NCBI RefSeq assembly: GCF_015291705.1
Contig: NZ_CP030050.1
Coordinates: 6,386,001 to 6,450,000, forward strand
DNA from: Bradyrhizobium arachidis
GTDB taxonomy: Bacteria; Pseudomonadota; Alphaproteobacteria; Rhizobiales; Xanthobacteraceae
Length of the DNA stretch: 64,000 nt
Direction of reading: 5' to 3'
Numbering within the stretch: position 1 is the first letter of the stretch; every line of letters begins with the position of its first letter. The position numbers and the translations under genes are program-made. Below the pieces are notes generated by a model. That model was not told the origin of the DNA. It made no database searches and saw only the letters and a list, made by a program, of their open reading frames with translations. Below, piece by piece: positions 1 to 14,592 of the stretch.

Positions 1-181
1 TTGACACGACTAAGGCGATCGCGCTGATGCTGAGAAACGGGTTAGCCAGCTGTCAAGCTCAACTGTCTAGTAGATCGCGGCAAGTCATTTGCATTCGGGG
101 TTCGACGCACCGGCAGCCCGAAAGCACTACCTTCACTCTGGATCGATGCCGGTCGATCGCTCCGCTGACGTGACCTCCGGC
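1..181. other. Window start, no supported gene
   Basis: No reading frame here has a convincing start, ribosome site or protein-like composition. The open frames that cross it are antisense to the NUDIX gene. It may hold the 3' flank of a gene outside the window. Confidence 0.4.
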
Positions 182-559
182 CTACTTGGGAAACAGCTTG
201 TCGCGAATATAACGCGAGGTGGCCGTCAGCCGGATGCCGCTCGGCTTCCGCCATACAGCCCGGTCGATCTCCTTCGGATCGCCGATGATCAGCTTGCCTT
301 TGGCGTTTTTGGCGACGAAGATCGCATCGCTCATTTTCCGCCCCGAGCGCTTGTTTTTCGCGGTGATCTCCTTCCAGAGGCTTATGCGTCCAAGCCTGAG
401 TTTTGGTAGCTCCTCTTTGATTTCTCGGCGCAAGCAGTCCTTTTCGGATTCGTTCGGGCGACGGCGGCCGCCCGGAAACATCCAGAGACCGTCCGATCGA
501 CGCCTCACGAGGAGCACCTTACCACGCTTCGCAGCAACCAGTTTCGATGATTTCGTCAT
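182..559 (-). CDS. NUDIX hydrolase
   Basis: A 125-residue NUDIX-domain protein. The Nudix box is complete: a GG, then Glu six residues on, then REIKEEL, matching G-x5-E-x7-REUxEE. This family hydrolyses nucleoside diphosphates linked to another moiety using Mg2+ bound by the box glutamates. The N-terminus (VLLVRRRSDGLWMFPGG) is the usual beta-strand entry to the box. I chose the ATG at 559; a TTG four codons upstream is possible. The substrate cannot be read from sequence. The protein is short, basic and ends in RDKLFPK. It sits alone among hypothetical genes in an accessory region, so it may be cargo of a mobile element. Confidence 0.85.
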   Translation of the reverse strand: MTKSSKLVAAKRGKVLLVRRRSDGLWMFPGGRRRPNESEKDCLRREIKEELPKLRLGRISLWKEITAKNKRSGRKMSDAIFVAKNAKGKLIIGDPKEIDRAVWRKPSGIRLTATSRYIRDKLFPK

Positions 560-825
560 AGCCAGCCGCAACGACCAAGGAATCAGCGCAATGGTAACTT
601 GTCTCTTCGGCTAGACAAGTTTGGCGGCCAACCGTGACGATCGCAGACAAGGTCTCTTTTTCCATCGTGGCCCCGTTCCATCGCGAATGATTGCTGCTAC
701 TCATCAACTATACAACCAAAGGATGATGTGAGGAATATGGACCGTGCAATCAGCGCACTGACCACCTTGCACCCCACGCCCGATTACGTTTCGATACACT
801 CGTAGGTACCAAGGGGAAAAGGTCA

Positions 826-1050
826 ATGAACCGGCTTCAGAAATTCGTTGAGCAAGGCGGATCCGGTGAGAGGACCGGCCGAACAGCGTACGCCTTCAAC
901 GCCTCGAATTTGCCCGAGGCGACTAAAGGGCTCGATTGGCGACCGATCACTGGTTTTAGCCCGGCCGATGAGGTTTTAGAGAACCCTAACCTGAAGCAGG
1001 TCTTCGAGGCGGCGTTGAAGCAAGGTTACGCACTGGTCACCCCTGCTTAG
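826..1050 (+). CDS. Small hypothetical protein
   Basis: A 74-residue protein of unknown function. A purine-rich AAGGGGAAAAGG lies just before the ATG and is a good ribosome site. The composition is protein-like (KFVEQGGSGERTGRT near the start, LKQVFEAALKQGYALVTP at the end). No domain, membrane segment or signal peptide is seen. Two further small plus-strand genes follow before 1.75 kb. I do not recognise the family; the C-terminal half looks like a short helical cap. Confidence 0.55.
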   Translation: MNRLQKFVEQGGSGERTGRTAYAFNASNLPEATKGLDWRPITGFSPADEVLENPNLKQVFEAALKQGYALVTPA

Positions 1051-1132
1051 AGGAGCGCCTGAATAGAAGCGGCTTGATGGGAAAGCGAAGGTGTCGAAGG
1101 CTATGGAACTTATTGTCGCCGGCTAACTGAAG

Positions 1133-1327
1133 GTGCGCGACCGACGCGCCTTGAAGAACTTGCTGGCTCATCGCCGTAACGTCCTAGGTCAGCTGCAAGG
1201 CGTGTCAGGCATCAATCCGGAAAACGCGGTCAAAGCGATCCAAGAAGAGCTAACGCTGATCGAAGCTGGCCTCGAAGAACTCAAGCCACCGCCCGGCTCA
1301 CTGCCTGACAACGAGTGGAGCCAGTGA
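1133..1327 (+). CDS. Small helical hypothetical protein
   Basis: A 64-residue product starting at a GTG. It is predicted to be almost wholly helical, with regularly spaced Leu and charged residues (ALKNLLAHRRNVLGQLQG, then AIQEELTLIEAGLEELK), which suggests a coiled-coil hairpin. The ribosome site is weak. A hairpin with a T tract about 115 bases downstream would end the transcript. Function unknown. Short helical proteins like this are common in phage-derived and island DNA, consistent with the surrounding region. Confidence 0.5.
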   Translation: MRDRRALKNLLAHRRNVLGQLQGVSGINPENAVKAIQEELTLIEAGLEELKPPPGSLPDNEWSQ

Positions 1328-1443
1328 GATCGCCTCAGTTTGGCCGGTTCATCTCGCGTTTGTAACCGGTTGGAAACCAATCTCAGCTAGGCTGCATGTC
1401 AGCGCCCGTTATCGGACAAGGCGTTACGCATGGGCAGGAGGAG

Positions 1444-1474
1444 CCCGCTCCCGAAAGGTGAGCGGGTTTTTTTT
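1444..1474 (+). terminator. Rho-independent terminator
   Basis: A perfect 7-bp stem (CCCGCTC with GAGCGGG) closes a 9-base loop and is followed directly by eight T residues. This is the cleanest intrinsic terminator in the window. It lies only 13 bases before the next coding start, so that gene may depend on read-through or a promoter inside this region. Confidence 0.85.
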
Positions 1475-1487
1475 GGGTTGATCAGGA

Positions 1488-1709
1488 ATGCGCGTAAATA
1501 AAATCACGTGGGATAAAATCGGCAGAGCGACAGAGCCGGGCCGTTACCAGTGCTTCTTCGGGTACCTGACCGTAACCGCCGAAGACATTCAGGTTTGGAG
1601 ACGATACCCCGACGCAACGTTCACGTTGATGGCGCGGCCGGCGACGCAACAATCCGTTGCTGAGGACTACTACCTAGGCGCGTTCGATATCGGCAATCCT
1701 GAGCCGTAG
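1488..1709 (+). CDS. Small hypothetical protein
   Basis: A 73-residue product with a plausible AGGA ribosome site overlapping the region before the ATG. It contains several aromatic residues (QCFFGYLTV, QVWRRYPDATFTLMARP, DYYLGAFDIG) and looks like a small beta-rich fold. No known domain is recognised. It follows a strong terminator by 13 bases, so its transcription is unclear. It belongs to the string of short accessory genes at the left of the window. Confidence 0.5.
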   Translation: MRVNKITWDKIGRATEPGRYQCFFGYLTVTAEDIQVWRRYPDATFTLMARPATQQSVAEDYYLGAFDIGNPEP

Positions 1710-1884
1710 GTTCCAGAATTAACTGTTTTCACGGACATCAAGCTTACTTCGCGACTTCGATTGCGAAGTCTTTTGGCGCCGATAGGTTTGTCTGCACCGG
1801 ACATTGCCCCGTCCGGGTTCGGCATGGCGAGGTCGTCGCGCCAAGATACTCGGCGCGGCGGCTTCCTTTATCCGCCGCAACGGT

Positions 1885-2136
1885 GTGAGCTTCATTTTGA
1901 CAAATAAGCCCGACAATGAACCCCTCGACCTCATTGAGATGCGGCGCCAGATCAGAGCTTTGCGCTCGCAACATTCTGATGATCTTCGGATCGCATCGCT
2001 GTTGAACCGCTTTCTTGTGAAGGTGGCATTTCTGACCGAGCCAACGGACCTCGCGCACGAGGAGTATCTCCGATCGGAGTTCGAAAGAACGCTGACAAAG
2101 GTCAAAGAGATTTGCGCACGGACCAAATCAAGCTGA
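1885..2136 (+). CDS. Hypothetical helical protein, start uncertain
   Basis: The convincing part is helical and charged: LDLIEMRRQIRALRSQHSD near the start and FERTLTKVKEICARTKSS at the end, about 83 residues from a GTG. The frame stays open to a TTG at 1804, but the added segment is Arg/Gly-rich and does not look like protein. No strong ribosome site marks either start, so this may be the 3' remnant of a longer gene. Function unknown. Confidence 0.45.
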   Translation: MSFILTNKPDNEPLDLIEMRRQIRALRSQHSDDLRIASLLNRFLVKVAFLTEPTDLAHEEYLRSEFERTLTKVKEICARTKSS

Positions 2137-2326
2137 ACCCACACCTCCGCCCGGACGTTGGCCCATCTTTCCTCGACGATCAGATCGTGTTGCAGCTGAA
2201 GGCAACGATCGATGCTATGATGCAACCGCGCGGGCGTTCACGTCTCGCGTGCCTGCTTCCTTCCTTCGCTGCGAGGCGCCATTGCCGGCGCAAGCGAGGC
2301 CCGTCCATGCACCTCAGATGCATCGG

Positions 2327-3019
2327 TCATGGCTTGTCGTTGGTCAGCGTGGCCCGCATGTGCTCGATAGCATCGATCACCTGCGTGAGTTGCTGGTTCT
2401 GGAAAGCAACAACTACATACTCTCTTAGTGCGGGAGCGTTGTGGGCCACGAAATCGATGAATGATGCTGCATACGGCGCAGCATATGTCGTGGCAGCTAT
2501 CATTCCACCTACCGTGGCCGTTCCGGCTCCGCGCGCCACTCCCTTCTGGTACTCGGCAACCAGTGCCCGATCCTCATCGCTGCGCGCATCGGCAAGCGAT
2601 TGACAGGTCAAGTAAGCACGGCGGACAAGCTGGACGATCAGATTTTTGGACGTTCCTGCGACCAAGTCCTGGGCTTGCTTCGCGTTGATATTGTCGGCTG
2701 TTGCGGCCGCCGCCTGCAAGGAAGCGCTTAGAACCTTGCCAGTTTGCTCAGTCGTGATACCCCGATCGACAGCGGCGCTTTCGACGATTGGTTTGGCTGC
2801 GCCGATGTTGTTCAGGACTGAAGTATGCTCCTGAGGTCCCACCCTTGTTGCGTCCAGCTCAACCAAATCCGGATTGCCGAGAACAAAGACATTCCATGCC
2901 TCGACGGGACGCCGCAATGCTTCAGCGACGGACGGGGGGAGCTTCGCGTAATACGGCTCGGTGCTGCTTTTGACGGCGTCGTGTTGGGCCACGACATTCC
3001 GTAGTGAGTTGCCGCACAA
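2327..3019 (-). CDS. Hypothetical protein with a small-residue-rich membrane segment
   Basis: About 230 residues. The N-terminal half is soluble and helical. A Gly/Ala/Thr-rich hydrophobic stretch around residues 165-195 (TATVGGMIAATTYAAPYAA) could insert in a membrane. The only in-frame start is a TTG at 3019, with AAGG upstream. The same frame stays open about 50 bases further and reads protein-like (VEFKKVLWLCGN), while a TTG overlapping the upstream stop (TTGA) opens a different frame. A coupled start followed by a one-base frame break near 3020-3065 is therefore possible. It lies just downstream of the disrupted gene at 3066-3666 and probably shares its transcript. Function unknown. Confidence 0.6.
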   Translation of the reverse strand: MCGNSLRNVVAQHDAVKSSTEPYYAKLPPSVAEALRRPVEAWNVFVLGNPDLVELDATRVGPQEHTSVLNNIGAAKPIVESAAVDRGITTEQTGKVLSASLQAAAATADNINAKQAQDLVAGTSKNLIVQLVRRAYLTCQSLADARSDEDRALVAEYQKGVARGAGTATVGGMIAATTYAAPYAASFIDFVAHNAPALREYVVVAFQNQQLTQVIDAIEHMRATLTNDKP

Positions 3020-3065
3020 CCAGAGGACCTTTTTGAATTCGACCTGCGGCCAAGTGGCCGGCTGC

Positions 3066-3666
3066 TCAAGAAAAGTGGTCCAGTGCGTCGTTTATTTGAG
3101 CGCGCTCTTGACTGGGAACATCCTCCTTGAGCTTGCTCAGCTGCTGACGAATGCGCACGTAGAGTTGGGATTGCTCGGGGTCGTGCGGGTCGCGAGGAGG
3201 ATCAGGCAGCAATTCCAGAGGTCCACGGCGCGATGGACGAAACGTGATAGCCTTTTCGTTCTGATCAGGGATTGCCGTGATAGGTGGAAATGATAGCCGC
3301 TGCGGAGTGCCCGAGCGCTCTTGCGCGCTCCCCTTGGTCGCATAAGGATCGAACTCCGCCATCGATCGAGCGATTTCTTCGAGAGGGTCGCTCGCTATTC
3401 GCTTCAGTCGCGGCGAGCCGTTGCCTTGTTCGCTGAGCCGCCTCCCTTGCACGTTGCGCGGCCTCGCCCTCAACTTTGCGGACGGCCTCTTCCAGGGAAA
3501 GGCGTTCGCGTGTTCTCTCGCTCTCAGACAGTGGTGGCTGCACGCTTCTGAGTTGTGCAATTAGAGCATTCCGTGCGCGTTCGTACAGCGCGCGACGGCT
3601 CTCACCCGGAGTGTTAGGGTCTAAGGCCTCGATAGCGCGTTTGACCAATGGGTAGTAATCGGCCAA
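3066..3666 (-). pseudogene. Frameshifted hypothetical gene
   Basis: Two frames share one gene. The 5' part begins at a TTG with a strong GAGGGAG site and encodes a conserved-looking N-terminus (ADYYPLVKRAIEALDPNTPG, then ERARNALIAQLRSVQPPLSE). Near position 3410 the sense frame shifts to one reading DPLEEIARSMAEFDPYATKG and ending in DALDHFS. Together they would give about 200 residues of charged helix followed by a Pro-rich linker. I recall this N-terminus as a recurrent hypothetical protein of Bradyrhizobium. The break could be real decay or a sequence error. Its stop overlaps a possible start for the downstream gene, which suggests a two-gene unit. Confidence 0.65.
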
Positions 3667-3764
3667 CGTATTCTCCCTCTGCGATCACTTTCCTATTTAG
3701 CGCTTTGCGCGGATACGTAAAGGCGGGTCGACATTCCTGCGTTGCCTTCTTCCACGGCCCCAAC

Positions 3765-4027
3765 TTAGGGCGAATGTGGCTTCGAAACCTGCCCCTTGCC
3801 GTGGACCTTATATTCCCGATCAAAGAACGCCTTGACGGCCGGCACGTACCGCCCGACCATCAGTCCATCGATCTTCGGAAGCCCCGGGCTTCGAGTAAGG
3901 TGACCACTGCGCGCCAATGCGAGTAGCTGCCGCGCCCAAGGACCGCCTCGCTCAACGATCGCTCATCCGCGAAAAGTGGCAGGTCTTGAATTGTGATCTG
4001 GCGCATGCGCTTGCGCGCCGGCGACAT
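3765..4027 (-). pseudogene. Frameshifted small gene next to the tRNA
   Basis: The ATG at 4027 opens a frame reading QITIQDLPLFADERSLSEAV and then WRAVVTLLEARGF. Sense then continues in another frame as LPKIDGLMVGRYVPAVKAFF and ends KGQVSKPHSP. A single missing C near 3877 (GGCTTCCGAAG where GGCTTCCCGAAG is expected) would restore a protein of about 88 residues. Similar short winged-helix-like proteins often sit beside tyrosine integrases in rhizobial islands, so an excisionase-like role is possible but unproven. It begins 65 bases from the 3' end of tRNA-Thr, as an element-end gene would. Confidence 0.6.
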
Positions 4028-4091
4028 CGGATATTACCCGCCCGGCCAACGCCGGTATAAAAAGAAATTATGGGAGCTGAAGCGCAGTTAG

Positions 4092-4166
4092 TGGTGCCGG
4101 CGGAGAGGATCGAACTCCCGACCTTTGGTTTACAAAACCACTGCACTACCGCTGTGCTACGCCGGC
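4092..4166 (-). tRNA. tRNA-Thr (anticodon TGT)
   Basis: A 75-base cloverleaf with encoded CCA. The 7-bp acceptor stem (GCCGGCG with CGCCGGC) is perfect. The D stem is GCAC/GTGC, the anticodon loop TTTGTAA gives TGT, and the T arm is GGGAG-TTCGATC-CTCTC. The anticodon stem has one terminal mismatch. It reads ACA codons as threonine. A diverged plus-strand copy of its 3' portion lies at 4333-4378, so this tRNA family seems to be an integration target. Confidence 0.93.
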
Positions 4167-4332
4167 CGTCGCCTGCTCATACAAAATCGCGACGACTGCG
4201 GCAACCGCGCTCCCGCGAAGGACTGAGCGCGCACGGAGGCGCGCGCCGATCAATTTACCCCACTGATTACCCTAGAAATATTTCATAGACCTATCCAACT
4301 GAAATATCGACGATAATTCTTATAAAGCTCCT

Positions 4333-4378
4333 GTTTTGTAAACCGAAGGTCGGGGTTCAATCCCCTCAGCCGGCACCA
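4333..4378 (+). repeat. tRNA-Thr 3'-end fragment, probable att site
   Basis: This matches the last 46 bases of a tRNA-Thr(TGT), from the anticodon loop through the T arm to GCCGGCACCA. It differs from the intact gene at several positions and is on the opposite strand. No 5' half precedes it, so it cannot be a working tRNA. Such fragments are the classic footprint left by a tyrosine integrase. A shorter, more decayed copy in the same orientation lies at 13807-13827. Confidence 0.75.
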
Positions 4379-4683
4379 TTCGACTATTCCCAGCCTTCGC
4401 CAGACTTCGTTTCAGTGACAGAAATTGCTGAAACATAGGTGATTTTCCCTTCGTAGACGTTCGCTATCGTCCGCGAGCTGCCGCGCGTTTTGTTGGTATC
4501 CGTGTTGGTATGCGCGCTTTTGAAGCCGAGGAGATACCAACAACTGTTCGGGGAAAACAAAAACAGAGGGGGGATGATGGCTTTGACGGACGCCCCCTGT
4601 CGAGCCGCCAAGAAGGCCGAAAGCCGTACAAGTTGAGCGATAGCGGCCGCTTTCTTTAAGGGGGATGAGCGGCTTTGAGCTTG
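4379..4683. other. Intergenic; inner end of putative island
   Basis: No supported gene. It holds a 21-base segment at 4492-4512 that begins GTTGGTATCCG and repeats GTTGGTAT, plus an inverted copy (GATACCAAC) at 4533-4541. A related segment sits at 13732-13752, inside the other tRNA fragment, with 18 of 21 bases the same. Short repeats next to a core site resemble integrase arm sites; this is inference. The minus-strand open frame here has no protein-like character. Confidence 0.5.
4492..4512 (+). repeat. Putative arm-type repeat, left copy
   Basis: Two direct copies of TTGGTAT spaced 12 bases start to start, in a segment opening GTTGGTATCCG. The paired segment at 13732-13752 matches 18 of 21 positions in the same orientation. 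Both lie just inside a tRNA-Thr fragment. Confidence 0.55.
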
Positions 4684-7600
4684 CTACATCGTCGTAGGCG
4701 AAGATTCCCCTTCGGAGCTTTGCCCTCCGCGTATTAGCGGCTTACGCAGCGCGGGACCTTTGGCCGACTCCGAGGCGCCGAACCAGGTGATATAGAGCGT
4801 CGGGAGGAAGACGAGCGTAAGAACCGTGCCAACCAGCAAGCCACCCATGATCGCGAAGGCCATTGGCCCCCAGAAGACTGTTGGTGCGATAGGGATCATT
4901 CCAAGGACAGTTGACACAGCGGTCAACATGATCGGGCGAAATCGGGAGCCGCTGCCGTCGACCGCGGCTTCCCAGGGCGTCTTCCCTAGGGCGCGTTCGG
5001 CGTCAATCTGACCAATCAGAATGACCACGTTCTTGCTGATCATGCCGAGAAGCGCCAGCACACCAAGAATGGCGACGAAGCCGAGCGGCCTTCCTGAGAG
5101 CATCAAGGCGGCAACGACACCGATCAGACCAAGCGGCGCCACGCTGAGGACCATGAAAAGTTTCGGAAAGCTCTGGAGTTGCGCCATAAGGATAGTGAAC
5201 ATGACGAACAGCATCACCGGAACCACGGCCAGCACAGATGCCTGGGACTTCTGGCTCTCTTCCACCGTGCCACCCACGACCACGTCGTACGACGGCGGAA
5301 GCGTCTTTCTGAAGCTCTCGATCGCCGGCCACAGCGACGTGACCACGCTTGCCGGCAACGTGTTGCCGACGATAGCCGCCTGGACGGTCAAGGTCGGAAC
5401 GCGATCGCGTCTCCAGATGAGTGGAAATTCTTGATCATATTCGAAGGATGCAAACTGGCTGAGAGGAACGGTTTGCCCGCTCGGCAAGGCCACCTGCAGA
5501 TTGCGCAGGCTGTCGAGCGAAACTCTCTGCGCGTCGGTCGCACGCGCGACCACGTTGACCAGGTAGATATCGTCGCGAACCTGGGTTATCGGTATGCCGG
5601 TCATCACCGCGTTCAACGCGGTTGCGATCGCCTGCGAGCTGAGGCCGAGAAGGCGGGCTTCACTCTGATCGATGCGGATGCGCACCTGTCGATCGGGCTC
5701 CATCCAGTCGAAATTGACCTGCTTGGTCTCCAGACTCGAACCAACGATCCGTCCAACATCGAGCGCAATCTCTCGTACCCGTTCTACGTCAGGCCCGCTG
5801 ACGCGGAACTGTACTGGCCATCCAACCGGAGGTCCAAGCTCGAGCGGAGAAACGAACGAAATCGCTTTGGGAAATTCCTGAGCCAGGAGCTTTTCAAGCT
5901 TGGCATGCAGCCGTTCGCGGGCCGCGACGTCCTTGGCGACCACGACGCTCTGGGTGAAGAAGTCATTCGGTAGTTGCACATTGAGCGGCAAGTAGAAGCG
6001 GATGGCGCCGCGTCCAACATAGGTGCTCCATCTTGCGACATCGGAATCCACCCCAAGAGCTGCATCCAGACGCTTCGCCGCCGCCTCGCTCGCATAGATT
6101 GACCCGTTCTGCGACAAACTGATGTCTACCAGCAATTCCGGACGATCCGACGACGGAAAGAACTGCCGCGGGATCAACGGCATCGCAAGGACCGCGGCTA
6201 CTAGGAGCGCCACCGAGATCGCGATCGTCAGCCATTTCCCGCGCATGGCGAATGTCAGGAAGCTCCGGTACATCCGGAAAATCCTGCCCGGATCCGCGGA
6301 GTCGCGTTGCCGCGGCGGGACCAGGATCGCAGCGCCGAGCAGTGGCGTAAAAATGACCGCCACGAACCACGATACCAGCAGCGCGATCGTGACCACGGCG
6401 AACAGCGAGAACGTGTATTCGCCGGCCGAGCTCGCCGCAAACCCCACCGGGATAAAACCCGCGATCGTCACCAACGTGCCCGCGAGCATCGCCATCGCAT
6501 GGGTCCGGTATGCGAAAGTTGCCGCTTCGACCTTGCTGGCGCCCTCCGCCAATTTGCTGAGCGTCGCATCGGTCGTGGTCATCGCGTCGTCGACCAGCAA
6601 CGCGAGCGCAATGATCAGTGCGCCAAGCGATATGCGCTGCATGTCGATGCCGAGTAGCGCCATGATCGGAAACACGATCGCCAGCGTGAACGGTATCGCA
6701 AGCGCGATGATCAGGCCTGGTCGTACGCCGAGGCTGATGAAGCTCACCACCATGATGATGGCGATCGCCTGCATCAGCGAGACCATGAACTCCCGGATCG
6801 CGTGCTCGACAACAACGGGCTGGTCCGCGACCAAGCTGGGCTCAATTCCGATCGGAAGTTCCGCCTTGATCCGGGCCATCGCCTTACTGAGGTTGGCGCC
6901 GAGCGCGAGGATGTCGCCGCCATCCCGCATGGCGATTGCAAGTCCTATTGCCGGCTGGCCGTTGACACGAAACATCGGGTGGGGCGGGTCGGTGTAACCG
7001 CGCCGTACGCGGGCTATATCGCTCAAGCGCAACATGCGGCCGCCGGCCGAGAAGTTGATGTTGGCGATGTCCTGCTCCGACTGGAAGCTTCCCGACACCC
7101 GAATGGAAATGGTTTCCGAGCTTGTCTGTATCGTTCCGGCCGGACGCACGATGTTTTGCGACTGGAGCGCTGCAATCAGGGCGGATCGATCAACCCCGAG
7201 GGCCGCGAGCTCCTTGGTAGAAAATTCGACGAAGATCACTTCATCCTGCTCGCCCAACAGCTCGATCTTCGACACGTCGGGCACGAGAAGCAGCCTCGAG
7301 CGGATCTCCTCGACCCGATCGCGCAACTCACGCTGGCTGAAGCCGTCGCTGGTGAAGCCGTAAATGATCCCGAACGTATCGCCGAATTCGTCATTGAACC
7401 CCGGTCCAATCACGCCGTCGGGCAGCGTATGGCGCATGTCGCCGATCGACTTGCGCACGTGGTACCATGTATCGGCAACCTCTCTTGCGTTTGCGCTGCC
7501 CTTCAGATTCACGAAGACGGTCGAGACGCCGGCCGTCGTGAAACTTCGCAGGAAGTCGAGATGCGGCGTCTCCTGCAGTCGACGTTCGAGGCGCTCCGTC

Positions 7601-7797
7601 ACCTGCTTCACCGTTTCCTCAACGGATGCGCCGGGCCAGGCGGCCTGAACGACCATGGTCTTGATAATGAAGGCTGGATCTTCGTTGCGCCCCAAGCGGA
7701 AATAGGACAGTACGCCGGCAATGACCGCAATGATCATCATGTAGACGACCAGCGAGCGGTGTTTCAGCGCCCAATCGGAAAGATTGATTCCGCTCAT
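4684..7797 (-). CDS. RND efflux transporter, inner-membrane pump
   Basis: A 1037-residue member of the AcrB/HAE family, full length. It is a proton-driven trimeric pump that takes substrates from the periplasm or inner leaflet and passes them to an outer-membrane channel. The N-terminus holds the first membrane helix (YMMIIAVIAGVLSYF), followed by the pore domain. The TM4 proton-relay Asp pair is present (LLVDDAMTTTDA), as is the TM10 lysine (MISKNVVILIGQID). It overlaps the upstream fusion-protein gene by four bases (ATGA), so the two are translated as a pair. No outer-membrane factor gene is nearby, so a channel encoded elsewhere would be used. Substrates cannot be inferred. It is cargo of the putative island. 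Confidence 0.93.
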   Translation of the reverse strand: MSGINLSDWALKHRSLVVYMMIIAVIAGVLSYFRLGRNEDPAFIIKTMVVQAAWPGASVEETVKQVTERLERRLQETPHLDFLRSFTTAGVSTVFVNLKGSANAREVADTWYHVRKSIGDMRHTLPDGVIGPGFNDEFGDTFGIIYGFTSDGFSQRELRDRVEEIRSRLLLVPDVSKIELLGEQDEVIFVEFSTKELAALGVDRSALIAALQSQNIVRPAGTIQTSSETISIRVSGSFQSEQDIANINFSAGGRMLRLSDIARVRRGYTDPPHPMFRVNGQPAIGLAIAMRDGGDILALGANLSKAMARIKAELPIGIEPSLVADQPVVVEHAIREFMVSLMQAIAIIMVVSFISLGVRPGLIIALAIPFTLAIVFPIMALLGIDMQRISLGALIIALALLVDDAMTTTDATLSKLAEGASKVEAATFAYRTHAMAMLAGTLVTIAGFIPVGFAASSAGEYTFSLFAVVTIALLVSWFVAVIFTPLLGAAILVPPRQRDSADPGRIFRMYRSFLTFAMRGKWLTIAISVALLVAAVLAMPLIPRQFFPSSDRPELLVDISLSQNGSIYASEAAAKRLDAALGVDSDVARWSTYVGRGAIRFYLPLNVQLPNDFFTQSVVVAKDVAARERLHAKLEKLLAQEFPKAISFVSPLELGPPVGWPVQFRVSGPDVERVREIALDVGRIVGSSLETKQVNFDWMEPDRQVRIRIDQSEARLLGLSSQAIATALNAVMTGIPITQVRDDIYLVNVVARATDAQRVSLDSLRNLQVALPSGQTVPLSQFASFEYDQEFPLIWRRDRVPTLTVQAAIVGNTLPASVVTSLWPAIESFRKTLPPSYDVVVGGTVEESQKSQASVLAVVPVMLFVMFTILMAQLQSFPKLFMVLSVAPLGLIGVVAALMLSGRPLGFVAILGVLALLGMISKNVVILIGQIDAERALGKTPWEAAVDGSGSRFRPIMLTAVSTVLGMIPIAPTVFWGPMAFAIMGGLLVGTVLTLVFLPTLYITWFGASESAKGPALRKPLIRGGQSSEGESSPTTM

Positions 7798-8897
7798 AGC
7801 CCTGATCCGAGAACGCGGACTGTCTGACCCGGGTGAAGCGCCTGGACGCCGGCGGTGACGATGACTTCACCGGTGTCTAGTCCTTGCGAGATCACCGCTT
7901 GAGCTTCGTCGAACCGTAGCACATCCACATTGCGAACTGAGACAGTGTTGTTGGCGGGATCGACGACCCACACGGCGGGGCGCTGGTTCATCCTGGTCAG
8001 GGCGGAAGAAGGAATATCGATCATCGGCCCGGCGCTCGTGTTCACCCGTCCGACGACCGTCGCGCCCAGCCGCATCGCCGGCGGGGGATCGGTCAGACCG
8101 ACTCTGACCTCGAAGGTCCTCGTCACGGCGCTGGCCTGCGCGGCGACCTCGCGAACGCGCCCCCTCGCCTTTATTGTCTGATCATCGGCTAGGCTGACTT
8201 CGACCTCCGGATCCGAGGAAGCCGACCTGACCAATTGAGAGGGAACGTCGAAGACGGCATCGCGGCCGTCTTGTCGCGCGATCCTCGCAATCATCTGCCC
8301 GACCTGGACCACTTCGCCGGCTCCCGGGCCGGTGGCGGTTATCACGCCGGGCGCATCGGCCGTCAGTTCGGTGAAACCGACGAGGTCATGTGCGGCACTC
8401 AGTTGCGCCTCAGCCGCGTCGACCTGCGACTGCGCGGTTTGCCGGGCCTGGGTGGCAGCATCGAAATTGGCGCGCGTTGTCCATCCCTGCGCCAAGAGCG
8501 TCTCCTGACGGTCGAAGTGATTGCGCGCCTGCGTCAACTGTCCCTGCGCCGCAGCGAGGGATGCCTGCGCCTGACGCAGTCCATTCAGTTCGTTCTGTGA
8601 CTCCAATCGCGCCAGCACTTGGCCGGCTTTGACCCTGTCGCCAATCTTGGCGTCGTTGCTCAGCAGTCGCCCGGATATCCGGAACGCAATATTCACTTCA
8701 TCTTCGGCCTCGATCCGCCCTGTAAATGTCAGGGGTGTTGTGACCTTGCGCTTTTCCACAGTCGACGTGCGCACGATTCGCGGAACCGGCGTGTCATTCG
8801 TTGCCTGTTCTCTGCCGCAAGCCCCCAGGCTCAGCGAGAATGCCGCCACGAACGTCGACGTGACCATGTATCGGAACGTGCAACGGCTGCCGCTCAT
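7794..8897 (-). CDS. RND efflux periplasmic adaptor (membrane fusion lipoprotein)
   Basis: About 367 residues of the HlyD/AcrA family, joining the RND pump to an outer-membrane channel. The signal peptide ends in an LGAC lipobox, so it should be a lipoprotein. A lipoyl/barrel-sandwich half (RISGRLLSNDAKIGDRVKAG), a coiled-coil hairpin (LNGLRQAQASLAAAQGQLTQ) and the matching second lipoyl half follow. Starts at GTG 8906, ATG 8903 and ATG 8897 are in frame. AGAGG lies eight bases before 8897, which favours that one. Four 18-bp tandem repeats end immediately upstream and may affect expression. It overlaps the pump gene by four bases. Confidence 0.92.
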   Translation of the reverse strand: MSGSRCTFRYMVTSTFVAAFSLSLGACGREQATNDTPVPRIVRTSTVEKRKVTTPLTFTGRIEAEDEVNIAFRISGRLLSNDAKIGDRVKAGQVLARLESQNELNGLRQAQASLAAAQGQLTQARNHFDRQETLLAQGWTTRANFDAATQARQTAQSQVDAAEAQLSAAHDLVGFTELTADAPGVITATGPGAGEVVQVGQMIARIARQDGRDAVFDVPSQLVRSASSDPEVEVSLADDQTIKARGRVREVAAQASAVTRTFEVRVGLTDPPPAMRLGATVVGRVNTSAGPMIDIPSSALTRMNQRPAVWVVDPANNTVSVRNVDVLRFDEAQAVISQGLDTGEVIVTAGVQALHPGQTVRVLGSGL

Positions 8898-8902
8898 AGA
8901 CA

Positions 8903-9136
8903 TCACCTCTTGCGTTCCAAGGCTGTCTTGCGTTCCAAGGCTGTCTTGCGTTCCAAGGCTGTCTTGCGTTCCAAGGCTGTCGCCCTGGGTATTTTGCCGA
9001 ACGGCTCCAGCGTTAAAATCGGTAAATCTACTCGGTGCAGCTGGATATAATCGTGGTTTGCCGAGGTGAGTTCGTAGGGAATATCCTGAGAGGTGATCAG
9101 GCCTTCACCCGATATCGCCAGTTCTGCTGCCAACAC
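8903..9136 (-). CDS. Possible upstream leader ORF containing the tandem repeat
   Basis: A 77-codon frame from GTG that ends in four copies of the six-residue unit TALERK, encoded by the 18-bp tandem repeat. Its stop overlaps the first possible starts of the adaptor gene (GTGATG). The N-terminal part (ISGEGLITSQDIPYELTSAN) is plausible protein, but no ribosome site or family is recognised. It could be a coupled leader peptide, a remnant of a regulator, or chance. The repeat length is a multiple of three, so copy-number change would keep the frame. Confidence 0.3.
   Translation of the reverse strand: MLAAELAISGEGLITSQDIPYELTSANHDYIQLHRVDLPILTLEPFGKIPRATALERKTALERKTALERKTALERKR
8909..8980. repeat. 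18-bp tandem repeat, four perfect copies
   Basis: Four identical units of CTTGCGTTCCAAGGCTGT at 8909, 8927, 8945 and 8963. The array ends 12 bases from the favoured adaptor start and about 290 bases from the divergent antiporter operon. Perfect identity suggests recent slippage and possible copy-number variation between strains. Confidence 0.95.
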
Positions 9137-9269
9137 ATGATGAGAGCGTGAGATGGAGCATGGCGCGCGGCGGAGCCGTCGCGCGCTACTCGCGCTTCAC
9201 TCGGATCGGCGCCGTTGATCGCCGCAGCGCAGACGCTGACGCAAGTCGGAAACGAGCCAGGAAGCGGCC

Positions 9270-9788
9270 ATGAAAGGTCCCTCGGCTGATCCAGATGCAT
9301 GCGCCGCCGCCGCTGGTCGATTGTGGCCGGTCGCGACGTACCGAGCGGCATTGTTCTTTTGCCTGTGGCTGGTGCTTGCCGGTGTCGATGTTGCCGATCT
9401 TCCCGCCGCCGCGGCCGCGATTGCCGCGGCAACTTGGACGAGCCTGCACCTGCTCGAGCCGAGCCGCGCGCGGCGATCGGTTCGCGCCATCGCCCGCCTG
9501 ATCCTTCTTTTCCTGTATCACTCGGTGGTCGCCGGAGCAGACGTTGCAGGGCGCGCACTTAATCCCCGATTGCCGCTGCACCCGGGATTTGTGACCTATC
9601 CGAGTCGGCTTTCGCCCGGGCTGCGGCAGAACGTGTTCACGACGCTCACCAGCCTGCTGCCCGGGACGGTGCCGGCGGGCGAGGAGGACGGAGAGATTGT
9701 CTATCATTGCCTCGACATCCGGCAGCCGGTCGTGACCGATCTTGCCGCCGAGGAATTGGCGCTGGTTCAAGCCCTATACAATGACTGA
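9270..9788 (+). CDS. mnhE: Mrp-type antiporter subunit E
   Basis: A 172-residue MnhE/MrpE-family membrane subunit. Hydrophobic segments lie near residues 25-60 and 75-95 (ALFFCLWLVLAGVDVADL). The family-type motif around LNPRLPLHPGFVTYPSRL and the C-terminal cytoplasmic domain with GTVPAG are visible. It is the first gene of a six-gene operon for a multi-subunit cation/proton antiporter. The start has AGGAAG upstream and the stop overlaps subunit F by eight bases. The N-terminus is slightly long for the family. The divergent RND operon lies across a gap of about 370 bases. Confidence 0.88.
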   Translation: MKGPSADPDACAAAAGRLWPVATYRAALFFCLWLVLAGVDVADLPAAAAAIAAATWTSLHLLEPSRARRSVRAIARLILLFLYHSVVAGADVAGRALNPRLPLHPGFVTYPSRLSPGLRQNVFTTLTSLLPGTVPAGEEDGEIVYHCLDIRQPVVTDLAAEELALVQALYND

Positions 9789-10071
9789 GTTCCTGACCGC
9801 CGCAGTCGGCTTGATCCTGGCCCTGCTGGCACTCGGGCTGGTGTCGATATTGCGTGGTCCGGGCGATGCGGACCGTATGATGGCGGCGCAATTGATCGGC
9901 ACCGCAGGCATTGCCGTGTTGCTCCTTCTCGGTACCGTGACGGGCGTCCCGGCGGCCATCGACGTGGCATTGATCCTGGCGTTGCTCGCCACCTTCGCGT
10001 CCATCGCGTTCGTCAAGAAGGGGCTTTCCCGCCTCGAAACCGACGGGCTTGATTCAACGGGGGACAGATGA
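9781..10071 (+). CDS. mnhF: Mrp-type antiporter subunit F
   Basis: A 96-residue subunit with three predicted membrane helices (AVGLILALLALGLVSIL, LIGTAGIAVLLLLG, AIDVALILALLATFASIAF). The GPGDADRMMA loop after the first helix matches MnhF/MrpF proteins. I chose the ATG at 9781; earlier in-frame starts fall inside mnhE. It overlaps the genes on both sides, so it is translated as part of a tightly coupled operon. Confidence 0.88.
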   Translation: MTEFLTAAVGLILALLALGLVSILRGPGDADRMMAAQLIGTAGIAVLLLLGTVTGVPAAIDVALILALLATFASIAFVKKGLSRLETDGLDSTGDR

Positions 10072-10361
10072 ACCTCGCACGCGACGTCGTGACGATTGCC
10101 TGCGTGTCGGCGGGAGCGTTCTTCTTCCTCGCCGGCACCGTCGGCCTTCTTCGCTTTCCCGACACCCTGACCCGCCTACACGCGCTGACCAAGGCAGACA
10201 ATCTCGGCCTGGGCTTCGTCGTGCTTGGCTTGCTCCCACAGGCAGGAAGCCTGCGCGACGGGTTGAAGCTGATCTGCATCTGGATGTTCGCACTGCTTGC
10301 CGGCGCCACCGTTTCCCAGTTGATCGCGCGCACGGCGCGCCAGAGCGGAGCGGCCAAATGA
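10068..10361 (+). CDS. mnhG: Mrp-type antiporter subunit G
   Basis: A 97-residue MnhG/MrpG-family subunit with three membrane helices. The signature LLRFPDTLTRLHALTKADN after helix one is the hallmark of the family. It overlaps mnhF and the next gene by four bases each (ATGA). In characterised Mrp complexes G sits with E and F in the module that, with A, conducts sodium or potassium out against protons. Here no large A subunit accompanies it. Confidence 0.9.
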   Translation: MNLARDVVTIACVSAGAFFFLAGTVGLLRFPDTLTRLHALTKADNLGLGFVVLGLLPQAGSLRDGLKLICIWMFALLAGATVSQLIARTARQSGAAK

Positions 10362-11302
10362 GTACTGCAACAGTCTTCGAGATCGCACTCGCCGCCGTGG
10401 TGCTGGGCCTCGCCATCTGGACCATCGCCGTCCCCGATACCTATTCGGCGACCGTCGGGTTCGTCGCCTACGGCCTCCTGGTTGCGCTGATATGGGTGCG
10501 TCTCGACGCGGTCGATGTCGCACTAACGGAGGCCGCCATTGGCGGAGGTCTCGGCGGCGTGATGCTGTTAGGGGCGGCCGCCAGACTGCGCGGTAGCGAG
10601 GTGGCAACGGCCGGACGTTGCAGCCCAACCGTGCGTCTCAGCGCCGCCATATTGTCTGCATCGACGGCGGCGATGCTGGCTTTCGCAATCTTGCTCCTGC
10701 CGAATCCGCCACCAACGTTGGCACCGGCGGCCGTCTCGAATGCGGGAGCAACCGGAATGGCCAATCCCGTCACCAACGTGCTCATGGCCTTCCGCGGGAT
10801 GGACACCATGCTCGAGAAGGTCGTGCTCCTACTTGCCATCGTCGGTGTGTGGTCGCTCGCGGCGGACCGCAATTGGGGCGGTCGTCAGGGACCGCGCCAC
10901 GAGGCTGACCCCAAGGGCGTTCTCGCCTTTCTCGCGCGCCTCCTTCCTCCCGCGGGCATTGTCGTCGGCATTTACATGCTGTGGACGGGGGCCGATCACC
11001 CCGGCGGAGCATTTCAGGGCGGCGCGGTTCTCGCGTCGATGTGGCTCTTGGTCATCATGGCTGGTTTGGCGGATACGCCACCCGTGAGCAGTCCACGGCT
11101 GCGGCTGGTCCTAGTGGCCGGGCCCGGCCTGTTTCTGGCCGTCGGCTTCGGTGGACTTTGCTTCGGAGCGGCGTTCCTCGCCTACCCGGTTGCAATCGCT
11201 AAACCTCTGATCCTTGGCATCGAGGTCGCGATGACCCTGACGATTGCAGCGACACTCGCCCTCCTGCTCGCCGGCGCGCCGGAAAGGAGTGTCGAGCCAT
11301 GA
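10358..11302 (+). CDS. Fused MbhD/MbhE-MnhB-like antiporter subunit
   Basis: A 314-residue membrane protein joining two modules. Residues about 1-75 carry a MbhD/DUF4040-like segment (RLDAVDVALTEAAIGGGLGG). A middle region has an MbhE-like hydrophobic helix and an amphipathic stretch. The last 140 residues are MnhB-like, with the diagnostic IYMLWTGADHPGGAFQGGA. In conventional Mrp operons the first two modules form the C-terminus of MrpA. Here they are attached to B without the large MrpA antiporter core, as in the separate MbhD/E/MnhB genes of archaeal Mbh/Mrp clusters. Overlaps on both sides show tight coupling. Confidence 0.82.
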   Translation: MSTATVFEIALAAVVLGLAIWTIAVPDTYSATVGFVAYGLLVALIWVRLDAVDVALTEAAIGGGLGGVMLLGAAARLRGSEVATAGRCSPTVRLSAAILSASTAAMLAFAILLLPNPPPTLAPAAVSNAGATGMANPVTNVLMAFRGMDTMLEKVVLLLAIVGVWSLAADRNWGGRQGPRHEADPKGVLAFLARLLPPAGIVVGIYMLWTGADHPGGAFQGGAVLASMWLLVIMAGLADTPPVSSPRLRLVLVAGPGLFLAVGFGGLCFGAAFLAYPVAIAKPLILGIEVAMTLTIAATLALLLAGAPERSVEP

Positions 11303-11640
11303 GCGGCGTCACGGTGTTTGGATCATTCGCAGCTGCGGCGATTGGACTTGGGCTCTACGGCCTGATTACCAATCCGCGACCGCTTCGCAAGATCATCGCA
11401 TTCAATCTGGTCGGCAGCGGCGTCTTTCTGCTGTTTGGCATCGTCGGACGAAGGGGCACCGCGGCGGGCGTTGGCAATGATCCGGTCCCACAAGCCCTGG
11501 TGATCACGGGAATCGTGGTGGCGTTTTCCGCAACGGCCCTGGCGATTGCCTTGCTGCTCCGATTGTTCCAGACCGGCGGCCCCTTGACGCTCGGCAGTCG
11601 CGCGCCGCCGGGCCCGCGGTCAGATCCATCCGGTGACTAA
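11299..11640 (+). CDS. mnhC: Mrp-type antiporter subunit C (NuoK-like)
   Basis: A 113-residue subunit homologous to NuoK of complex I, with three membrane helices. Helix two (KIIAFNLVGSGVFLLFGIVG) and helix three (PQALVITGIVVAFSATALAI) match MnhC. The acidic residue usual in helix two of NuoK-like subunits is replaced by small or neutral residues. It overlaps the preceding gene by four bases and shares an A with the start of subunit D (TAATG). Confidence 0.88.
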   Translation: MSGVTVFGSFAAAAIGLGLYGLITNPRPLRKIIAFNLVGSGVFLLFGIVGRRGTAAGVGNDPVPQALVITGIVVAFSATALAIALLLRLFQTGGPLTLGSRAPPGPRSDPSGD

Positions 11641-13409
11641 TGTTGCCTCCTGCCTCAGCGCTGGCGACGACGACGTCCGGCTTCCTGCTAGTCCTGTCGA
11701 TCGCCATACCGGTCGCTGGCATCCTGCTGGCGTTCACTCTCGGCGACCGTTACGTCCGGCAGGTAGCCCTCGCGGTTGTACCGTTGGGGTTGGCGATTGC
11801 GGGGGCCATTCTCCTGGCCGTGCCGCAGGGCGGCGGCCTCATAGTCTATCTACTTGGTGCATGGTCGCCCCCGCTAGGAGTGGCCTTGCGCGCGGACGGA
11901 CTGTCGGCGGTGATGCTCGCGACCACCGCGATTGTGATCTGCGTGGTCGCCGTCTTTGCCACGACTGACTTTCGTCCAGCATCGGACGCACGCACATCCT
12001 TCGCGTTCTGGATCCTGTTGCTTGCCGTTTGGGCAGCGCTGAACATGATCTTCGTTGGCGGCGATCTCTTCACCCTGTATGTCGCGCTGGAGTTGCTGAC
12101 ATTCGCCGCAGTCCCGCTGGTCTCCCTCGATGGCCGCGCGGAGACGCTTCAGGCCGCGTTACGCTATCTTGTCTTTGCGTTGCTCGGCTCGGTTCTCTAC
12201 CTGCTGGGCGCGGCCCTGCTCTACGGCTTTTATGGGACGCTCGACATGGTGCTCATGTCGCGTGTCGTCTCAGCGCAGCCGGGCGTGCTCATTGCCGTCG
12301 CATTGATGACGATCGGCCTCCTCGCAAAGACCGCGCTCTTCCCGTTGCACCTTTGGCTGCCGTCCGCTCACGCCGGCGCGCCGGCCGCGGCGAGCGCAAT
12401 TTTATCCGGCTTGGTCGTGAAGGGATCGTTTTTCATTCTTTTGCGGCTTTGGTTCGACGTGATACCCGGCTTGCCCAGCTTCGCTGCCGCGCAATTCCTG
12501 GCGGCACTGGGGACCGGCGCGATCGTGATCGGAAGCGTGGTCGCCTTGCGGCAGGAGCGCCTCAAGCTGCTCGTAGCATATTCGACGTTGGCTCAGATCG
12601 GGTATCTCTTCTTGATGTTTCCGCTCGCCGTCAATGCCGTGGGTCAACTCGAGACCGGGCAGGCCCTTGCGGCGGGATTGCTGCAGACGATCTCTCACGC
12701 CACTGCCAAGGCGGCGATGTTCCTGGCCGTCGGATCGATCTACACCGAGCTGGGGCACGACCGCATCACCGGGCTGGGCGGTGCCGCACGTGTCCTACCT
12801 CTCAGCGTACTGACCTTCGCAGTGGGTGGCCTCGCGCTGATGGGCGTTCAACCCAGCGGCGCAGCCTTTGCGAAAGAGCTTCTGCTGCAGGAGGCAATGA
12901 GGACAGGACAGTGGTGGTGGGCCGCGGTGCTGCATGCCGGTGGAATGTTCACGACCGCCTATGTCCTGTTGGTTCTGGCCTTTGCGCTCGCGCCTTCCGA
13001 TCAACCGATCGCGCCCATCCAGACGGCGCTGCCACGCCGCGACCTAGCCGCGCTCGCCCTGGCGACCTGTTCGCTGCTGCTTGGCTTAGTACCCTGGGAA
13101 CCATACCTGCCGATCTCACATGATGTGATGCCGAAATTGTTCAGTCGCGATGGGCTCGCAAAATTGCTCCTGTCTGTGCTGGGAGGTGCGACGCTCGCGA
13201 TCCTGCTAAATCCCTGGCGGCATCCGCTGGCTGCCTCGTCCGGTTGGAAAGCGATGGGCAAGGTGCTCGAGCCGCTACGGCGCATCTGCTTTCGATTCGG
13301 CGACCTGGTCGACAAAGCCGATAGTATTCTTCGTCAATGGGCCGCGGCAGGCATCTCCCTGCTACTGCTCGGCCTGGCCCTCGCCGTATTGATGTTCGCC
13401 GCAAACTGA
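11640..13409 (+). CDS. mnhD: Mrp-type antiporter subunit D (NuoL/M/N-like)
   Basis: A 589-residue proton-antiporter-type membrane subunit. It has the TM5 glutamate (LYVALELLTFAAVPLVSLDG), the TM7 lysine and following loop (LLAKTALFPLHLWLPSAHAG), and the next lysine (SGLVVKGSFFILLR). These residues form the proton-translocation path in Nuo/Mrp subunits. It is the only large antiporter-like subunit in the operon, so it must carry the ion-exchange role alone. At 589 residues it is longer than a typical MrpD, with extra C-terminal helices. It is the last gene of the operon. Confidence 0.9.
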   Translation: MLPPASALATTTSGFLLVLSIAIPVAGILLAFTLGDRYVRQVALAVVPLGLAIAGAILLAVPQGGGLIVYLLGAWSPPLGVALRADGLSAVMLATTAIVICVVAVFATTDFRPASDARTSFAFWILLLAVWAALNMIFVGGDLFTLYVALELLTFAAVPLVSLDGRAETLQAALRYLVFALLGSVLYLLGAALLYGFYGTLDMVLMSRVVSAQPGVLIAVALMTIGLLAKTALFPLHLWLPSAHAGAPAAASAILSGLVVKGSFFILLRLWFDVIPGLPSFAAAQFLAALGTGAIVIGSVVALRQERLKLLVAYSTLAQIGYLFLMFPLAVNAVGQLETGQALAAGLLQTISHATAKAAMFLAVGSIYTELGHDRITGLGGAARVLPLSVLTFAVGGLALMGVQPSGAAFAKELLLQEAMRTGQWWWAAVLHAGGMFTTAYVLLVLAFALAPSDQPIAPIQTALPRRDLAALALATCSLLLGLVPWEPYLPISHDVMPKLFSRDGLAKLLLSVLGGATLAILLNPWRHPLAASSGWKAMGKVLEPLRRICFRFGDLVDKADSILRQWAAAGISLLLLGLALAVLMFAAN

Positions 13410-13467
13410 AGACACACCGTTCGGATTGATCCAGCCCGGCAGCAGTTGGTTCTGCCGCACACCACCA

Positions 13468-13623
13468 TCATTCGCACCGGGTTCGCTTTGCAAGCGAGAC
13501 ATCAGCCCAGCCAAGCGGATCAGCCTCAGCACTCCGACTTCGCAGGAAGTGACAGTGTTTGTATTTCTTGCCGTTGCCGCAGTAACACGGCTCGTTGAGT
13601 TTCGGTTTGCCGGAACTTCGCAT
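13468..13623 (-). CDS. SEC-C motif mini-protein
   Basis: A 51-residue product whose core is a SEC-C zinc motif: [15 protein letters not shown], with Cys-x-Cys then Cys-His. The motif is known from the C-terminus of SecA and from many stand-alone proteins, where it binds zinc. The ATG at 13623 is preceded by a GGGG purine run. The C-terminal part has no known domain. It could be a genuine small zinc protein or the remnant of a longer gene that lost its N-terminus near the island end. Confidence 0.6.
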
Positions 13624-13731
13624 CTCGCTACCCCGGAAATTTGACCAATCACCATATAGGTGGCGTCAGTGGACAGGGGCCGCGGGTTGCCGGCGTTTTC
13701 CTCAGCGAAACTTCGCCTGCCTTCGCGATCT

Positions 13732-13752
13732 GTTGGTATCCGCATTGGCATG
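13732..13752 (+). repeat. Putative arm-type repeat, right copy
   Basis: Begins GTTGGTATCCG and matches the left copy at 4492-4512 at 18 of 21 positions. It lies 55 bases inside the decayed tRNA fragment at 13807. The paired placement at both ends is the best support for a discrete element of about 9.5 kb. Confidence 0.55.
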
Positions 13753-13806
13753 CGGCTGAGTTGCCATGCAAAAGATACAATAATCTCAACTAATTAACAC
13801 CAATAG

Positions 13807-13827
13807 TTCATCCCCTCAGCCGCACCA
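13807..13827 (+). repeat. Decayed tRNA-Thr 3' fragment, probable second att site
   Basis: TTCATCCCCTCAGCCGCACCA matches the end of the fragment at 4333-4378 except for one missing A and one missing G. It has the same orientation as that fragment. No tRNA 5' half is present. I read it as the right boundary of the island carrying the efflux and antiporter operons. Confidence 0.55.
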
Positions 13828-14159: not shown

Positions 14160-14172
14160 GCGAACGTCGGCC

Positions 14173-14592
14173 TCAGCCTGAACCCTTGCGCGCGCTGCTC
14201 TGTTCGAAGTGCTCGACACCCGTGCCGGCGATCTCGACCCAGGCATGTTTCGACTGCTCGAACACGGATCTGACCGGCGCCGGAAAATCCGGGTCCGCGA
14301 TGGCGCCGACGGCAACGCCGATCATCGCCGGCAGATTGTCGGCCTTCCAACAGACCGTCGAGCCGCAATCGGAGCAAAAATAGAAGCGGACCTCGCCCCC
14401 GCTTGCGGCGGCGCGAACGTATTCCTTCGGTGCGCCGGAGATCGTGACGGCTTCGATCGGATAGAACGCAGCGACACCGAACGGTGCCCCGGTTCGCCGC
14501 TGGCAGTCGATGCAATGACAGGCCGCGACCAGCTTGGTCGGTCCCGGAAGCGAAAGTGAAACAGCGCCGCAACTGCATCTGGCATCGATCAT
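14173..14592 (-). CDS. GFA family protein
   Basis: A 139-residue protein of the glutathione-dependent formaldehyde-activating (Gfa/CENP-V) family. The zinc ligands are visible: CSCGAV near the N-terminus, CHCIDCQRRTG around residue 26, and CSDCGSTVCW around residue 73. Many members are of unknown substrate, so a formaldehyde role should not be assumed. The ATG overlaps the stop of the upstream methyltransferase gene (ATGA), so the two form an operon. Confidence 0.88.
   Translation of the reverse strand: MIDARCSCGAVSLSLPGPTKLVAACHCIDCQRRTGAPFGVAAFYPIEAVTISGAPKEYVRAAASGGEVRFYFCSDCGSTVCWKADNLPAMIGVAVGAIADPDFPAPVRSVFEQSKHAWVEIAGTGVEHFEQSSARKGSG

Follow-up and report, generated by a model that had tools for sequence, protein, structure and literature searches.

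A tRNA-Thr(UGU) gene split by a Bradyrhizobium arachidis island that appears to carry its replacement

Why do two fragments of a tRNA-Thr gene lie on either side of a set of efflux and antiporter genes in Bradyrhizobium arachidis? The question arises from a stretch of 64,000 nucleotides, here called the window (G000:C1:6386001-6450000, where G000 denotes the B. arachidis genome, a single contig of 9,865,973 bases). A first-pass annotation took positions 4333-13827 for one island that carried a stress-tolerance cassette between the two fragments and had since lost its integrase. The fragments mark two adjacent insertions, islands A and B, and not the two ends of one element. Island A is very likely an integrative element working by the scheme known in phages as tRNA-dependent lysogeny, with island B inserted separately at the 3' end of the same tRNA.

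The split host gene and its probable replacement

The native site was sought in 60 relatives, including 35 same-genus genomes besides G000. A full-length native-type tRNA-Thr(UGU) gene occurs in 34 of these 35, and in the last it is interrupted by a contig end. Alignment of 17 fetched loci to 120 kb of the window's chromosome identified 15 as the native site, and six of them (L065, L066, L067, L070, L077, and L078) keep both flanks, with an intact tRNA and no cassette in the middle. In these six the left flank stops at window position -35743, inside the tRNA, and the right flank begins at 14165-14225. G000 holds about 49.5 kb of extra DNA where same-genus genomes hold an intact tRNA-Thr(UGU). 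A site empty of the cassette, which the first-pass annotation had proposed to look for in related strains, is also seen in genomes G139 and G181, where the flank directly follows the tRNA 3' half.

In G000 the host tRNA gene is split just past the anticodon. Its 37-nt 5' half (G000:C1:6350221-6350257) gives way to unrelated sequence and sits 40 kb upstream of the 3' half, beside an intact tyrosine integrase located 172 bp inside the left junction of island A. Both plus-strand fragments in the window proved to be what the first-pass annotation had called them. The first, at 4333-4378, is a 46-nt 3' half that aligns to its native counterpart in same-genus genomes at up to 98% identity with one gap; the second, at 13807-13827, is a 21-nt remnant that differs from the native tRNA end by two single-base deletions and at which the native flank resumes, the G139 flank aligning from window position 13806 onward. 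Their role as the two bounds of one element did not survive: the fragment at 4333 is half of a host tRNA broken by the integrase-bearing island on its left, and what had passed for the left end of an island closes, on the right, a larger element whose start lies outside the window at -35742.

Transfer RNAs were called with ARAGORN and Rfam, protein domains with Pfam, and phage genes with PHROGs. The first-pass annotation had overlooked the one complete tRNA of the window, a minus-strand tRNA-Thr(UGU) at 4092-4166. Among 47 tRNA matches in G000 this island A copy is the single tRNA-Thr(UGU).

From the cut tRNA, the short core, the one tRNA-Thr(UGU) remaining among the tRNA matches of two single-contig genomes, and the same layout in four elements, all of them seen in the sequence, we infer the following course. 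The island A integrase would recombine a very short core of 9 bp in the anticodon loop of the host tRNA-Thr(UGU) gene; because the element end carries no matching tRNA half, integration would destroy that gene. The element's own complete tRNA-Thr(UGU), which is encoded on the other strand, 166 bp from the core, behind a promoter-like sequence of its own, would then be expressed, be needed, and take over. Circularised, the element would bring its tRNA, attachment site, and integrase together in one compact module, with the tRNA and the integrase pointing away from the core. Island B would have inserted separately at the same tRNA 3' end, where it now adjoins island A. Carrying a complete replacement copy probably makes island A very hard to lose.

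One family of integrases with the same cut

A sample of 265 same-genus genomes served for the integrase, cut-pattern, and boundary-repeat scans. Besides G000 itself, it contains relatives of the integrase in G181 (93% identity) and G139 (91%), the next match by score falling to 39%, and the cut pattern occurs in the same three genomes of the 265. A scan of species genomes returned five loci. Two belong to Nitrobacter winogradskyi (80%) and Nitrobacter sp. 62-23 (76%), a third, from B. sacchari, is the G139 locus (91%), and the remaining pair is distant (36% and 25%). A close integrase (76-100% identity) is present in five genomes, three of them among the 265. At a threshold of E 1e-90, 391 family-level genomes gave four matches, G000, G181, and two of another genus taken as the two Nitrobacter, and no clearly new carrier was found in that sample.

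In all five genomes with an integrase of at least 76% identity, a tRNA-Thr 5' half precedes the integrase, terminates in GTTTTGTAA, and gives way to sequence that is not tRNA. The cut falls on the same base every time and the element sequence past it is alike; no tRNA was called at the left junction, where the host tRNA is not rebuilt. Around more distant integrases a cut 5' half was found in none of 27 loci, each read about 1.5 kb to either side.

Four elements could be read at both ends, those of G000 (40.1 kb), G181 (13.2 kb), G139 (9.9 kb), and G290 (13.5 kb), with cores of 9, 11, 11, and 15 bp, the 9-bp core being that of G000. Inside the right end of each lies a complete tRNA-Thr(UGU) on the opposite strand, of the same isotype as the broken host tRNA and separated from the core by 166 (G000), 135 (G181), 135 (G139), or 132 bp (G290). 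All four carry TTGCCG-N17/18-TATGA(G/C) before this tRNA and TTACCC-type pairs between it and the core, and such a pair also precedes the integrase in five of five left ends. The tRNA bodies differ: those of G181 and G139 agree fully and share 71% identity with the G000 copy, which is 97% alike to that of G290, so the replacement tRNAs have at least two origins. In G181, also a single-contig genome, tRNA-Thr(UGU) again appears once among 47 tRNA matches, 46 of them with an assigned anticodon in a list that is possibly incomplete. For the G181/G139 tRNA the best full-length match is 88% in plasmids and 87% in phages, and one viral record reaches 95%.

The same G of a five-G run is absent from the displaced 3' halves of G000, G181, and G139 (window 4333-4378; L139:16224-16269; L140:7108-7159). 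Among intact natives matched by pattern in a scan of 29 loci, the G is present in 19 of 21, and two genomes of other families read GGGAG.

No phage structural gene was found in island A (Pfam scan of 38 of 55 candidate ORFs [open reading frames]; 13 with PHROGs), in G181 (eight proteins scanned), or in G139 (three proteins scanned). The G290 element encodes tape-measure-like and tail-fibre-like proteins (L141:4995-9209), the one carrier of four with tail-like genes among the proteins scanned, and a phage ancestry is possible given these proteins. The island A integrase has no relative that we could find in viral contigs, and it matches phage and plasmid records only below 60% identity. Of seven pattern matches in viral contigs, five lie inside called tRNAs; the other two (L220 and L221) are a cut tRNA-Thr 5' half in records where no tRNA was found, and neither support nor refute the scheme.

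Alternative readings and evidence on both sides

That positions 4333-13827 form a single island whose integrase was lost is improbable. In its favour, the segment is absent in relatives, no integrase domain was detected in its nine Pfam-scanned ORFs (the short candidate ORFs 4384-4611 and 8903-9136 lie outside that scan), and a boundary repeat stands at both of its ends and nowhere else in the 265 genomes. This reading, dropped once the 5' half turned up 40 kb upstream, ignores that half, the adjoining integrase, and the replacement tRNA, although it could still hold for island B alone. The claim of extra DNA at the tRNA-Thr site stands for 4379-13806; that the fragments are simply the two ends of one element is not supported.

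The usual behaviour of integrating islands suggests another history, in which the insertion of island A at first left the tRNA restored, the genome then acquired another tRNA-Thr, and the restored half was deleted only afterwards. Islander describes islands as restoring the tRNA, and does not accept a tRNA and fragment that point in opposite directions (PMC4383910); a review likewise describes an intact tRNA as reconstituted on integration (PMC8371274). Such a deletion would have had to arrive at the same base in five of five genomes, with like element sequence after the cut, and to leave the replacement in the same place and orientation in four of four elements; we regard this as more doubtful still. 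Least probable of all, by a little, is that the extra tRNA-Thr(UGU) is a mere passenger, unneeded since another tRNA reads ACA. G000 does hold tRNA-Thr(GGU) and tRNA-Thr(CGU), but by standard decoding rules neither anticodon reads ACA, and a passenger would hardly be expected to recur with the same isotype, place, and orientation in all four elements with two unlike tRNA bodies.

Several observations weigh against the scheme preferred here, tRNA-dependent integration of island A. Only five carrier genomes are known, three of the 265 in the genus. N. winogradskyi, with its 80% integrase, has no separate replacement tRNA; a complete tRNA-Thr(UGU) lies at its right end (L144:7884-7958, contig C116) with its 5' side joined to element sequence, and this element seems, as read from two unjoined contigs, to supply the 5' half and rebuild the tRNA with the host 3' half. 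In each of the four elements ARAGORN still recognises a tRNA when the two halves are rejoined, so that cells might survive excision. The same G is missing from the 3' halves of G000, G181, and G139, and the flanks of these genomes give a mixed picture. In the 200 bp to the left of the tRNA, the three each find their best match in an uncut genome (77-79%) and are 65-71% identical to one another; when 1500 bp are compared, G000 pairs best with G181 (83%) and G139 with the uncut G021 (84%); on the right flank, G000 is closest to G139 (89%). Given the shared missing G and these flanks, full independence of the three Bradyrhizobium insertions does not appear firmly supported.

A broader proposal, to which we give a slight preference, is that small non-phage primase-type islands form a family that disables an essential tRNA gene and substitutes a portable tRNA of exchangeable body behind a conserved promoter and attachment module. 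Entry would thereby make the island essential, a toxin-free addiction device that would drive the replacement of core tRNAs by foreign versions. The small phage-gene scan of G139 (three proteins), and a rejoined tRNA that may still work, weaken this proposal.

Island contents, known systems, and meaning

The features are collected in Table 1. GC content is 57.0% in island A and 61.8% in the island B segment, against 64.8-64.9% in the flanks, a comparison that the first-pass annotation had proposed for the segment.

Table 1. Features of islands A and B in window coordinates (negative positions lie left of the window)
Feature	Position	Strand	Basis or remark
Island A, whole element (G000:C1:6350258-6390332)	-35742 to 4332		Native flanks map either side; integrase domains; GC 57.0%
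Island A, right-hand part in window	1-4332		Same basis as whole element
Tyrosine integrase of island A	-35570 to -34299		Arm-binding and Phage_integrase domains
Complete replacement tRNA-Thr(UGU)	4092-4166	-	ARAGORN; Rfam 66.7 bits
Promoter-like segment TTGCCG-N17-TATGAG before replacement tRNA	4176-4204	-	Similar segment in 4/4 elements read
Paired TTACCC-type sites, putative integrase arm sites	4254-4272	+	Similar pair in 4/4 right ends and in 5/5 left ends before the integrase
9-bp core GTTTTGTAA, common to both island A junctions	4333-4341	+	Junction comparison
3' half of the host's broken tRNA-Thr(UGU)	4333-4378	+	One G of the G run missing
Island B, second insertion without recognised integrase	4379-13806		Absent at site in relatives; ORF scans
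Left boundary repeat of island B	4491-4514	+	Repeat comparison
RND efflux pump (ACR_tran)	4684-7797	-	Pfam
Membrane fusion protein of RND pump	7794-8906	-	Pfam HlyD_D23
MrpF-like subunit	9742-10071	+	Pfam
Fused MbhD/MbhE/MnhB-like antiporter subunit	10049-11302	+	Pfam
NuoK/MnhC-like subunit	11299-11640	+	Pfam Oxidored_q2
MnhD-like antiporter subunit	11640-13409	+	Pfam Proton_antipo_M
Right boundary repeat of island B	13731-13754	+	Repeat comparison
21-nt tRNA 3'-end remnant, native flank resumes	13807-13827	+	G139 flank alignment

Island B measures 9.4 kb. The related pair of segments noticed just inside the fragments is real: its boundary repeats, of TTGGTATCCG type, are identical at 21 of 24 positions. 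A search in other genomes, suggested as a link to islands elsewhere, gave none; as a 22-base pattern with at most one mismatch the repeat occurs at only these two places in the 265 genomes, and a reversed control gave 0. The island A integrase is unlikely to have moved island B, judging by repeats that differ from A's TTACCC-type sites. The earlier proposal that the RND and antiporter operons moved together is partly upheld. The antiporter gene occurs in eight of 100 genomes, G000 included, and the two blocks adjoin in G021, G016, and G087, at other places and with 73-84% identity, which fits one cassette; a link to tRNA sites elsewhere did not emerge, no tRNA being found in the 17-18 kb read around those blocks. 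One weak plasmid match covers 16% of island B. With tRNA fragments at both ends and no integrase of its own among nine ORFs scanned, island B could be a decayed tRNA island of the usual kind. The G290 element offers a similar tandem, in which a second 3' half lies further on with another integrase nearby. Near that second 3' half, L142:8020-11881 holds a second integrase and a Prim-Pol primase.

Domain scans of island A further identified a VapE/PriCT primase-helicase, IS110 and IS66 transposases, a nitroreductase-YcaO-ThiF trio, MgtC, and proteins of the metallo-beta-lactamase fold, SDR, MFS, LysR, SMP-30, and NUDIX types; no defence gene was found among ten proteins checked. The nitroreductase, YcaO, and ThiF family genes are consecutive at L083:12930-17570, left of the window, in a row that we take to resemble a gene set for a thiazole/oxazole-modified peptide.

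Other observations concern the site and tRNA genes at large. In G026 (L070 / L153) about 6 kb of other DNA lies between the intact tRNA-Thr and the conserved right flank, and given this the site may be an insertion hot spot. Extra tRNA-Thr-like matches occur in G001 (C49) and G023 (C112); the G001 copy was rejected as a further tRNA-Thr(UGU), having a different anticodon (TCGTAA loop) and adjoining other tRNA-like sequence. G000 also carries a second, low-scoring tRNA-Lys(UUU) gene, perhaps element-borne (G000:C1:1874055-1874124; L170).

The mode proposed for island A is already known in phages; its carrier and its compact layout make it a variant of that mode. tRNA-dependent lysogeny has been proved for actinobacteriophages, and its authors state that its prevalence beyond them needs study (Guerrero-Bustamante and Hatfull 2024, PMC10865867). 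There the carriers are phages and the need for the tRNA is proved, whereas island A is an integrase-primase island of an alphaproteobacterium, uses a tRNA-Thr(UGU) whose need is predicted, and packs it beside the attachment site. Shared with that scheme are an integrase beside the junction, a short common core without a rebuilt host tRNA, and an element tRNA of the same isotype; N. winogradskyi differs. The scheme is also reported in Sinorhizobium meliloti prophages, where two strains, their host tRNA-Leu(UAG) inactivated, are supplied with a tRNA that stems from another alphaproteobacterial lineage; these differ in being classed as intact prophages and in the tRNA concerned (PMC11476347). The same source places tRNA-Thr(GGU) genes in three genomic islands, which its section 7 does not describe as replacing a broken gene, and other S. 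meliloti prophages are described as not using the scheme (PMC12429752). In archaea, disruption of a tRNA by a mobile element has been proposed (PMC3293823). Like the usual tRNA islands of Islander (PMC4383910), island A has a tyrosine integrase, a tRNA target, a displaced fragment, and a tandem neighbour; those islands rebuild the tRNA, whereas island A splits the host gene and breaks the same-orientation rule, its tRNA being on the minus strand and the fragment on the plus strand. Among the papers that our searches returned, judged mostly by titles and the openings of abstracts, none describes such a non-phage island.

The locus would extend a scheme proved in actinobacteriophages to integrase-primase islands of soil Alphaproteobacteria, and it makes prevalence outside actinobacteriophages testable in harmless laboratory strains. 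It also offers a simple signature to look for in genomes: a tRNA gene in two parts with an integrase next to it, and at the far end a tRNA of that isotype in inverted orientation. If the scheme is true, island finders that require tRNA and fragment in the same orientation discard such islands. The locus further suggests a way for an island to make itself very difficult to lose, and for a foreign tRNA gene to take the place of a conserved one.

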